Under the pieces are notes generated by a model that had not been told where the DNA came from, did no database searches, and worked only from the letters and a program-made list of their open reading frames with translations. The position numbers and the translations under genes were made by a program. Shown here piece by piece: positions 52,744-58,184 of a stretch of 64,000 nt of DNA. The DNA comes from Paracoccus sp. SMMA_5_TC. Lineage in GTDB: Bacteria > Pseudomonadota > Alphaproteobacteria > Rhodobacterales > Rhodobacteraceae. The stretch spans positions 310,001 to 374,000 of the forward strand of contig NZ_CP102355.1 in NCBI RefSeq assembly GCF_009696685.2, given 5' to 3'. The stretch's first letter is position 1; each line of letters starts with the position of its first letter.

Positions 52744-52772
52744 TTGAGCAAGCCATTCCGATACTGCATAGC
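52744..52772 (+). promoter_or_regulatory. Possible stress-type promoter of the DUF1127-sRNA locus
   Basis: TTGAGC, a 17-bp spacer and CATAGC lie 111 bp before the DUF1127 ATG. The homologous Rhodobacter sphaeroides locus is driven by RpoHI/RpoHII. The match here is only suggestive. Confidence 0.3.
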
Positions 52773-52882
52773 AGCATCTCGCCCCGCAGCCATTGTGCAA
52801 ATGCAGAAACAGCGCCATCTTGGCTTCAACAGCGCGGCACCCGAAACCCCGCCGCGCCAGACGAAAGACCGAAGGTAAGAAG

Positions 52883-53110
52883 ATGGCTGTTCTTGATCTG
52901 ATCCATGGCGCGCAGCGCAGCGAAACCGGCCTGATCGGCACGATTTCCGGCTTCATCGCAAATGCCCGCGACTACATGGCCCGCCGCGCCCTCTACAACC
53001 AGACCGTCCGCGAACTGCGCGGGCTGAGCACGCGCGAACTGGCCGATCTGGGCCTGACCCCGTCCAGCCTGACCAGCGTCGCCTATGAAGCGGCCTGGGG
53101 GCGCAAGTAA
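52883..53110 (+). CDS. DUF1127 small protein heading a CcsR-type sRNA array (CcaF1-like)
   Basis: The 75-residue protein has a helical N-terminal region and the DUF1127 core, with ARDYMARRALYNQTVRELRG followed by LSTRELADLGLTPSSLTSVA. In Rhodobacter sphaeroides the equivalent small DUF1127 protein CcaF1 binds RNA and affects maturation of the CcsR sRNAs encoded behind it. The same gene order here supports that role. GAAGG precedes the ATG. The first hairpin of the sRNA array begins 11 bp after the stop, so the sRNAs are probably cut from the same transcript. Confidence 0.88.
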   Translation: MAVLDLIHGAQRSETGLIGTISGFIANARDYMARRALYNQTVRELRGLSTRELADLGLTPSSLTSVAYEAAWGRK

Positions 53111-53120
53111 GTTTCCCTTT

Positions 53121-53191
53121 CCGGACCCCTCCTCCTCCCTGGGTCCGGGTTTCGGCGGCATCCTCCCTCCCTCCTCCCTGAGGGTGCCGCC
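53121..53191 (+). ncRNA. CcsR-type sRNA unit 1
   Basis: Hairpin A is CCGGACCC/GGGTCCGG (8 bp) with loop CTCCTCCTCCCT. Hairpin B is GGCGGCA/TGCCGCC (53154-53191), extended by about four inner pairs. Both loops contain CCTCCTCCC. The unit is 71 nt and begins 11 bp after the DUF1127 stop. Confidence 0.82.
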
Positions 53192-53200
53192 AGGAAAGCC

Positions 53201-53235
53201 GGCAGCAGCTTCCACCAGATGGCGAAGCTGCTGCC
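53201..53235 (+). other. Strong hairpin without the CCTCCTCCC motif between sRNA units 1 and 2
   Basis: GGCAGCAGCTT and AAGCTGCTGCC form a perfect 11-bp stem with a 13-base loop lacking the array motif. It could be a processing signal for RNase cleavage or a partial terminator. Its role is unknown. Confidence 0.6.
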
Positions 53236-53244
53236 ACAGATACC

Positions 53245-53317
53245 GCGAAACCCTTCCCTCCTCCCCGGGTTTCGCAGTTCAGGCGGCAGACTCTCCCTCC
53301 TCCCCGAGGATGCCGCC
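53245..53317 (+). ncRNA. CcsR-type sRNA unit 2
   Basis: Hairpin A is GCGAAACCC/GGGTTTCGC (9 bp perfect) with loop TTCCCTCCTCCCC. Hairpin B is GGCGGCA/TGCCGCC (53282-53317) with inner CTC/GAG pairs. The unit spans 73 nt. Confidence 0.82.
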
Positions 53318-53328
53318 ATCCTTACGGC

Positions 53329-53399
53329 GAAGCCCCTCCTCCTCCCTGGGCTTCCCGGTTCCGGCGGCGCCCCGTCTCCTCCTCCCTGGGGGCGCCGCC
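53329..53399 (+). ncRNA. CcsR-type sRNA unit 3
   Basis: Hairpin A is GAAGCCC/GGGCTTC with loop CTCCTCCTCCCT. Hairpin B is GGCGGCGCCCC/GGGGCGCCGCC (11 bp, 53363-53399). The unit spans 71 nt. A small GCGCC-GCAA-GGCGC hairpin follows at 53409-53422. Confidence 0.82.
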
Positions 53400-53429
53400 T
53401 TGAAATACGCGCCGCAAGGCGCAGGAATG

Positions 53430-53497
53430 CGACGGCCTCTCCTCCTCCCTGGGCTGTCGATACGCGGCGATGGCGCCCTCCTCCCTGCCATTGCCGC
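53430..53497 (+). ncRNA. CcsR-type sRNA unit 4
   Basis: Hairpin A is CGACGGCC/GGCTGTCG with one G-U pair. Hairpin B is GCGGCGATGGC/GCCATTGCCGC (11 bp with one G-U, 53464-53497) and loop GCCCTCCTCCCT. The unit spans 68 nt. Confidence 0.8.
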
Positions 53498-53503
53498 ATC
53501 CAT

Positions 53504-53574
53504 ACGCGGCCCCTCCTCCTCCCTGGGCCAGCGTTGTGCGGCGGCGCCCCCTCCTCCTCCCTGGGCGTCGCCGC
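53504..53574 (+). ncRNA. CcsR-type sRNA unit 5
   Basis: Hairpin A is ACGC+GGCCC/GGGCC+GCGT with a single-base bulge. Hairpin B is a 12-bp stem with one G-U pair (53538-53574), directly followed by TTTT. The unit spans 71 nt and its second hairpin doubles as the terminator of the locus. Confidence 0.8.
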
Positions 53575-53578
53575 TTTT
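53538..53578 (+). terminator. Intrinsic terminator of the DUF1127-sRNA operon
   Basis: GCGGCGGCGCCC pairs with GGGCGTCGCCGC (one G-U) and is followed by TTTTCATTTC. It is the only hairpin of the array with a T tract, so it probably ends the whole transcript, 32 bp before the rlmJ ATG. Confidence 0.78.
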
Positions 53579-57491: not shown

Positions 57492-58184
57492 ATGAAACTG
57501 ACCTGGCTAGGCCATTCCGGTTTTCGGCTTGAAATCGAACGGGCGGTGATCCTGATCGACCCCTGGCTGTCGGGCAATCCGATGTTTCCGGCCGAACGCC
57601 GCGCCGAGGCCATCGGGGGCGCCACCCACATCCTGATCACCCATGGCCACGGCGACCATACCGGCGACACCATCGCCATCGCCCGCGAACTGGGCATCCC
57701 GGTGGTGGGCATCTATGACATTATCTCGACCTGGACCCGTCACGAGGGCATCGAGGGCATCGGCTACAACAAGGGCGGCACGGTGGATCTGGGCGGGGCC
57801 AGGGTGACCATGGTCAATGCCGCGCACTCCTCCTCCCTGGAGGGTGCCGAGGGGCCGGTCTATGCCGGCCACGAATCGGGCTACATGATCGCCGGCGAGG
57901 GCCATGTGATCTATGTGTCGGGCGACACCGACATCATGGCAGACATGGGCTGGATGGGGGAATATCACCGCCCCGACATCGGCATCCTGGCCTGCGGCGG
58001 CCATTTCACCATGGACATGGATCGCGCCGCCTGGGCCGCCCGCAAGTATTTCGATTTCAAGACCGTGATCCCCTGTCACTACCGCACCTTCCCGATGCTG
58101 GCGCAGGATGCCCGCGCGCTGCAGGCCGGGCTGCCGGGGGTCGCGGTGATCGAGCCCGAGGTGCTGCAACCGATCGTGATCTGA
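57492..58184 (+). CDS. UPF0173 metal-dependent hydrolase
   Basis: Metallo-beta-lactamase-fold hydrolase of the UPF0173 family. The 230-residue product begins MKLTWLGHSGFRLEIE and has the metal motif THGHGDHTGDT, NAAHSSSLEGAEGPVYAGHESG, YVSGDTDIMADM, and the late histidine in IPCHYRTFPML. The substrate is unknown. AAGGAG six bases before the ATG at 57492 decides the start over an upstream ATG at 57462. Confidence 0.93.
   Translation: MKLTWLGHSGFRLEIERAVILIDPWLSGNPMFPAERRAEAIGGATHILITHGHGDHTGDTIAIARELGIPVVGIYDIISTWTRHEGIEGIGYNKGGTVDLGGARVTMVNAAHSSSLEGAEGPVYAGHESGYMIAGEGHVIYVSGDTDIMADMGWMGEYHRPDIGILACGGHFTMDMDRAAWAARKYFDFKTVIPCHYRTFPMLAQDARALQAGLPGVAVIEPEVLQPIVI

Follow-up and report, generated by a model that had tools for sequence, protein, structure and literature searches.

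A five-unit array assigned to the CcsR/cuckoo small RNA family behind a DUF1127 gene

As judged from its sequence, the locus behind the DUF1127 gene in the window (the whole 64-kb stretch of DNA that was analysed) is a genuine CcsR/cuckoo array of the CIN1 type, unexceptional in length for this known family of stress RNAs. The assignment is based on a covariance model built with the window's genome left out, conserved synteny, a Pfam match to DUF1127 and covariation, which together support the first-pass annotation in proposing a CcsR/cuckoo array behind a DUF1127 gene. The best explanation, in which we place good confidence, is that a stress-induced precursor would be processed to sRNAs of two loops each, which would then mask ribosome-binding sites. 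The features of the locus are as follows, R1 denoting the held-out covariance model.

52765..52777, no strand assigned: tentative LysR (VtlR/LsrB)-like box TGCATAGCAGCAT, in a conserved block just upstream of the putative promoter
52793..52821, + strand: putative promoter TTGTGC-N17-CATCTT, loosely RpoH-like, in a conserved block
52883..53110, + strand: gene for a CcaF1-like DUF1127 protein of 75 aa (Pfam PF06568, 40.3 bits, cut-off 23.3)
53120..53191, + strand: unit 1, two hairpins with CCUCCUCCC loops (fold; R1 59.1 bits)
53201..53235, + strand: non-motif hairpin 1, between units 1 and 2 (12-bp outer stem, z -5.38)
53245..53317, + strand: unit 2 (fold; R1 59.8 bits)
53325..53399, + strand: unit 3 (fold; R1 66.8 bits)
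53409..53422, + strand: non-motif hairpin 2, between units 3 and 4 (5 bp, z -2.18)
53430..53497, + strand: unit 4 (fold; R1 53.2 bits when searched alone)
53504..53574, + strand: unit 5 (fold; R1 69.9 bits)

The motif CCTCCTCCC occurred ten times on the + strand between 53131 and 53561, and an eleventh, solitary copy lay at 57829 of the window. In 100 dinucleotide shuffles of the window the motif appeared 0.62 times on average (maximum 4), and the whole genome (3.12 Mb, three contigs) held 15 copies, 10 of them within the array. When the units were folded separately, the motif lay in a loop for all 10 copies and each of the five units formed two hairpins; the unit folds, at boundaries of our own choice, had z scores of -4.31 to -5.45, and none of 200 shuffles was equally stable. 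Motif count and folding thus bear out the ten shared-loop hairpins in five units that had been described earlier. They had been called consecutive, which is not strictly so, as two non-motif hairpins interrupt the row; these two had also been noted and are present at 53201-53235 and 53409-53422, the second being weak (6 of 200 shuffles match its stability). The folded spans of the units were 68-75 nt, compared with the 68-73 nt given before. The final hairpin is followed by TTTTCATTT, with TTTT at 53575-53578, and the second hairpin of unit 5 together with TTTT is likely the terminator. The T-tailed hairpin claimed earlier is therefore in place, but termination is something that we infer: the terminator scan reported merely a 5-bp stem inside the 3' arm of the last hairpin, with 1.0 chance matches expected, and, being limited to loops of 3-8, was blind to the last array hairpin as such.

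Rfam at gathering scores gave no match in the window. In an E-value-thresholded search of 1,101 bases, CcsR1 (RF02791) scored 44.9, 38.8 and 35.5 bits against a gathering score of 65.3 (best E 1.7e-09), and the best ar14 (RF02344) match scored 56.5 bits against 58.8 (E 2.4e-09). Among 38 loci, related ones and controls, CcsR1 never reached its gathering score; ar14 reached it in 4 of 20 close loci (L055, L162, L168 and L176, P. kondratievae included) and, of another 18 loci (14 from Alphaproteobacteria, 4 from elsewhere), in 5. Since CcsR1 fails in all 38 loci and ar14 passes in few, the verdict was rested on R1, which was built from 75 two-hairpin units of 19 relatives (loci drawn from 22) and whose structure comprises the second hairpin only (9 pairs), the first entering as sequence. 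The results showed that R1 matched all five window units with 53.2-69.9 bits, unit 4 being searched alone because its match would overlap that of unit 5; the next-best match in the 64 kb, antisense within the array, reached 17.5 bits. Read to the letter, at the Rfam gathering scores, the covariance-model check that the first-pass annotation had named is failed, all units falling below those scores; with the held-out model all five are found. At E < 0.01, R1 matched 14 of 14 Rhodobacterales-type loci (some of them MAGs), 7 of 7 Rhizobiales loci and 1 of 6 non-alphaproteobacterial loci (26.8 bits), the 27 loci having been chosen from at least 120 motif-pattern loci and being, as motif-picked loci, bound in part to match. 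The weakest rhizobial locus scored 29.7 bits, compared with 26.8 bits outside the Alphaproteobacteria, indicating that R1 tells near members of the family apart from unrelated loci well, and distant members only poorly. Three non-alphaproteobacterial loci (L045, L125 and L153) carry CTCCTCCC evenly spaced, 15-36 nt apart, and are perhaps tandem repeats unrelated to CcsR/cuckoo.

Covariation was assessed on the unit alignment, where double-change cells numbered 204, compared with 78.5 in shuffles (0 of 500 as high) and 46-102 in slid controls. Double changes were seen in 16 of 17 pairs, compared with 13.1 in shuffles, of which 8 of 500 reached 16. The second hairpin was strongly paired (94.1% of alignment cells), and the first, which is poorly aligned, was paired in 61.9%. 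In an arm-swap test of 215 unique hairpins from 23 loci, real arms formed a mean of 14.55 pairs per hairpin and swapped arms 11.54 (sd of 10 shuffle means 0.23), which upholds the earlier statement that the stems differ yet stay complementary. A separate idea, that stems are kept distinct against cross-folding, was rejected, as cross-pairing within arrays equalled that between arrays (first hairpins, -9.67 vs -9.62 kcal/mol; second hairpins, -13.57 vs -13.94 kcal/mol).

The PF06568 match at 52883-53110 confirms the DUF1127 gene that had been placed ahead of the array. This gene is short, lies on the same strand and stands directly upstream, as in the CcsR1-4 and ccaF1 locus labelled CIN1 (PMC10253847, excerpt). 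The first motif follows about 20 nt past the DUF1127 stop, an rlmJ gene lies 3' of the array, and upstream there is an Mrp-like gene of opposite orientation. In 19 of 23 genus loci a DUF1127 open frame has its stop 18-62 nt ahead of the first motif; the nearest named relative is Paracoccus kondratievae (rlmJ, 75.3% identity; DUF1127, 61.8%), so that the window probably comes from a Paracoccus. Three three-hairpin loci, L160 (G002), L169 (G013) and L175 (G020), have the same loop motif without a DUF1127 frame just upstream, and L176 (G021) is an eight-hairpin array without a recognisable one there.

Within the arrays, two hairpin types, first and second, take turns along the units. The type was assigned by parity from the 3' end, stem-start labelling being too noisy, and the parity and first/second counts were made without G002, G013 and G020 and after removal of one false G004 hairpin. 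In the genus arrays, ATAC preceded 54 of 113 first hairpins compared with 3 of 114 second hairpins, and GGCGGC preceded 0 of 113 first compared with 56 of 114 second hairpins, both counts including orthologous and duplicated units; with unique flanks, ATACG preceded 35 of 102 first and 2 of 97 second hairpins. Outside the genus, in 15 arrays of even motif number out of 22 (L055 left aside), ATAC was uninformative (9/67 vs 6/67), and a run of four A/T preceded 23 of 67 first compared with 6 of 67 second hairpins. RNase E sites of R. sphaeroides are enriched in A/U (PMC6238624, excerpt), and because the enzyme cuts amid A/U there, the A/U-bearing linkers are read as likely cut sites. A widened step stood ahead of the last two units in 16 of 20 genus arrays, and in 15 of those 16 the linker folds into a hairpin (-8.8 kcal/mol or lower) with differing stem sequences, the window copy being 53409-53422. 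The hairpin at 53201-53235 had no clear genus counterpart at that place by spacing (G010 ambiguous), and 8 of 22 named arrays had a 60-75 nt step at the counterpart place, judged by spacing only.

In the explanation that we prefer, stress transcription, processing and targets are drawn from R. sphaeroides and S. meliloti. One stress-induced transcript would start upstream of the CcaF1-like DUF1127 gene, run through the five units and end at the last hairpin; RNase E and the DUF1127 protein would cut the A/U-bearing linkers, giving five sRNAs of about 70 nt with two CCUCCUCCC loops each; and these loops would pair with GGAGG-type ribosome-binding sites, so that mRNAs for transport and carbon metabolism would be translated less. 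The ccaF1 gene of R. sphaeroides and CcsR1-4 belong to a single RpoHI/HII operon that is processed by RNase E (PMC10253847, excerpt). Against this explanation, CcaF1-type DUF1127 proteins may also act via protein contacts (PMC12501420, excerpt). The anti-Shine-Dalgarno (aSD) loops of the ar14 RNA NfeR1 silence ntrB (PMC10746234, excerpt), and by analogy an aSD bait mechanism is plausible for the window array.

We searched gene starts of the window's genome for sequences complementary to the loops. The full complement GGGAGGAGG was found 3-11 nt before ATG at no gene start genome-wide, with 2 antisense hits inside the array, so that targets would have to pair over fewer bases. The shorter GGGAGGA occurred 4-12 nt before ATG at 34 places in the genome (one in the array), compared with 5 for the reversed pattern; 29 of the 34 places were read, giving 28 genes with 25 frames of at least 60 aa, all of them Pfam-scanned, and four others had no locus. 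Eight of the 25 scanned frames are transport components by Pfam name, and a ninth candidate carries DUF485, which we take to be associated with acetate permeases. Several further candidates are carbon-metabolism enzymes, namely an E1 dehydrogenase, PhaC, MaoC, an enoyl-CoA hydratase and a short-chain dehydrogenase. In kind, the candidate targets are similar to the NfeR1 predictions, a comparison made with no control set and no claim of enrichment.

The lack of a full 9-nt complement at gene starts also fits another reading, in which the array works chiefly in cis, stabilising the DUF1127 mRNA as its 3' UTR and buffering its decay, and the loops serve as a platform for the DUF1127 protein or Hfq instead of as baits for mRNAs. 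Under that reading the position of the array directly behind the DUF1127 stop in 19 of 23 genus loci and the recurrence of a non-motif hairpin inside the array would be expected. However, the ten window loops share a 9-mer and the stems differ, and stability alone needs neither; moreover, the three-hairpin loci G002, G013 and G020 keep the loops without a DUF1127 frame ahead, and trans silencing of an mRNA is known for a related RNA (PMC10746234, excerpt). We consider a mainly cis role unlikely.

Array length was then compared among relatives. The exact 8-mer CTCCTCCC was present 3 to 16 times per locus in 23 genus loci. Motif hairpins numbered 7-16 per array across 20 genus arrays, the window (10) included, when one-mismatch loops were allowed and the three-hairpin loci G002, G013 and G020 were left out; the number was even in 19 of the 20 arrays (14 of 20 when exact motifs alone were counted). 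R1 matched in 161 of 198 Rhodobacteraceae genomes (nearly one per genus), with at least five matches in 34, the window's included, and a maximum of 9, although matches in a genome may span more than one locus; the window's genome had 5, and the two among the matches listed both lie in the array. The longest arrays at named loci were those of a Loktanella MAG (14), P. kondratievae (12) and another MAG (12), each 26-28 nt behind a DUF1127 frame. Unit number thus varies widely among relatives, so the five units instead of the four of R. sphaeroides, which had been singled out earlier, are indeed present but unremarkable. One genus array, L163 (G005), contains nearly identical 184-nt tandem steps, probably a recent expansion.

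Such redundancy of loops (7-16 motif hairpins in each of 20 genus arrays) and the tandem steps of G005 would also suit a sponge function, in which the array titrates another sRNA, or else ribosome sites in bulk, at a dose set by copy number. As NfeR1 acts by specific mRNA silencing (PMC10746234, excerpt) and no titrated partner was identified, a sponge is in our view quite improbable. A chance or low-complexity CT-rich repeat without function, which the C-rich motif and the unrelated loci with evenly spaced CTCCTCCC might bring to mind, has a negligible likelihood given the covariation, the held-out model, the conserved synteny and the failure of 5 of 6 non-alphaproteobacterial loci of the same pattern to match R1 at E 0.01. 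The processed precursor with ribosome-site-blocking loops stays the preferred explanation.

To describe the control region of the proposed precursor, we aligned 19 upstream regions, which revealed two conserved blocks. One contains the putative promoter, with TTGTG and CATSTT in 19 of 19 regions; a promoter scan gave no sigma-70-type site. TTG in the -35 is a conserved feature of R. sphaeroides RpoHI/HII promoters (PMC3441632, excerpt). The rsp_0557 promoter has TAT on the -10 side (PMC10673084, excerpt), whereas the -10 side of the window's promoter lacks it.

The other block, which is LysR-like, centres on TGCATRGCAGCATT and, read on the other strand, resembles the VtlR motif, given for Brucella as CAATGCAGCCATGCA (PMC12595884, excerpt). 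The window box matched this motif at 11/15, and 5 of 100 shuffles did equally (p 0.05). A match of at least 11/15 at that place was found in 15 of 19 genus loci, relatives reaching 14/15, and in G004, G006, G014 and G019 the best match lay elsewhere. We also compared named loci that combine five or more motifs with a DUF1127 frame: of the 20 non-rhizobial ones, 19 matched at 12/15 or better in the same orientation (the L042 match lay elsewhere), and six rhizobial loci matched at 12-13/15 in the opposite orientation, L055 being too near its end. Against the printed consensus GCAT-N3-TG-N3-T (PMC7486931, excerpt), a single position deviates in the genus form and two positions do in the window.

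TGCATNGCAGCAT had three exact copies in the genome of the window: in the array box, 173 nt ahead of a second DUF1127 match, and in front of a MaoC-like gene; when one mismatch was allowed, it occurred at 34 places (reversed control, 0). The full dyad TGCTGCATRGCAGCA gave 106 sites in 81 genus genomes (control, 0), outside which the window's own box falls by one base. About 34 of these sites lie before arrays, 4-5 before other DUF1127 genes and 27 before a MaoC-like leader; about 20 precede small genes encoding some 75 aa, and the remainder are unclassified. In S. meliloti, the LysR regulator LsrB activates the ar14 RNA NfeR1 (PMC10746234, excerpt), and in Brucella, VtlR controls DUF1127 genes and AbcR2 (PMC12595884, excerpt); the resemblance of the box to the VtlR/LsrB motif suggests the same wiring of a LysR regulator to DUF1127 and aSD RNA genes in Rhodobacterales. 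None of the papers listed in a literature search on VtlR/LsrB boxes dealt with CcsR, and the original cuckoo, ccaF1 and CcsR papers may describe an upstream LysR box or longer arrays.

Two further ideas about the box were rejected. The small genes behind the dyad looked DUF1127-like by eye, and neither the DUF1127 profile nor Pfam matched them (none above the Pfam cut-off in 5 of 5 family members tested); in this family (L261, L262, L278, L306, L314 and similar) the leader reads GGGAGGAAAC ... GTTTCC, for which self-pairing is possible. A feed-forward scheme, with the LysR-like box also driving loop-complementary genes, had its initial hint in GGGAGGA near all six non-array box sites and was not supported. 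Among the 106 dyad sites of the 81 genomes, 24 non-array, non-DUF1127 sites had GGGAGGA within 160 nt; about 16 of these belong to one small-gene family, with GGGAGGA away from the start codon, and one is really an array site. GGGAGGA was present at 1 of 27 MaoC-like leader sites, the window genome's own, and in 35 of 424 background stretches.

One relative, G007 (L188), carries a syntenic array with changed loops. In this one-contig relative, seven hairpins lie on the minus strand behind a DUF1127 gene and before an rlmJ frame (by eye). None of the seven loops contained CCTCCTCCC or CCUCCUCCC, all seven contained CTCCCCC (CUCCCCC) and six contained CCTCCCCC; the first two, which are the two loops with CUCCUCCC, retain CTCCTCCC followed by more C. 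No CCTCCTCCC pair was found in G007. A search for paired C-extended loops matched G007 six times and 15 others of 81 genomes once each, the single match of G063 sitting in array-like sequence. A shift of ribosome sites matching the G007 loops was not supported, G007 not being the extreme: starts with GGGGAGG/GGAGGAG numbered 60/70 in G007 and 28/29 in G000, and the ratio was 0.27-0.73 in eight other genomes, the GGAGGAG pattern also counting antisense hits inside normal arrays. On a wider view, the arrays would be a length-variable magazine of aSD loops, tuned by duplication and with loops drifting together, and their wiring to a LysR (VtlR/LsrB-type) box would be an ancestral alphaproteobacterial circuit. 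We hold this possible but doubtful, having lowered it because two G007 loops keep CUCCUCCC and the small genes are not DUF1127 genes.

The family itself is already known, and what is added here, namely the linker signal, the control region and the G007 loops, is of modest interest. The boundary signal, the recurring non-motif hairpin, the LysR-like box and the C-extended relative provide handles on the cutting, regulation and aim of these RNAs, and arrays of at least five units are common in Rhodobacteraceae, beyond the 2-4 hairpins described for cuckoo RNAs (PMC4504443, excerpt), compared with which the window has ten in one row. Like CcsR1-4/ccaF1 of R. sphaeroides, the window locus has a DUF1127 gene, then predicted tandem sRNAs, then a likely end terminator (PMC10253847, excerpt), and its units resemble RS0680a in having two stem-loops with one aSD motif each (PMC3927594, excerpt); it differs from CcsR1-4 in its five units instead of four, in the two non-motif hairpins between units and in its score of 44.9 bits against a cut-off of 65.3. 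The loop motif is also found in S. meliloti families (PMC3927594, excerpt). The array shares hairpins with CCUCCUCCC aSD loops with ar14/NfeR1 (RF02344; 56.5 vs 58.8 bits), which in rhizobia, however, is an RNA of three hairpins transcribed from a promoter of its own (PMC10746234, excerpt). In the VtlR/LsrB regulon of Rhizobiales, LysR-type regulators control DUF1127 genes and aSD sRNAs (PMC12595884, PMC10746234 and PMC7143759, excerpts), an arrangement that the window locus may parallel, its putative box matching the motif at 11/15 only.
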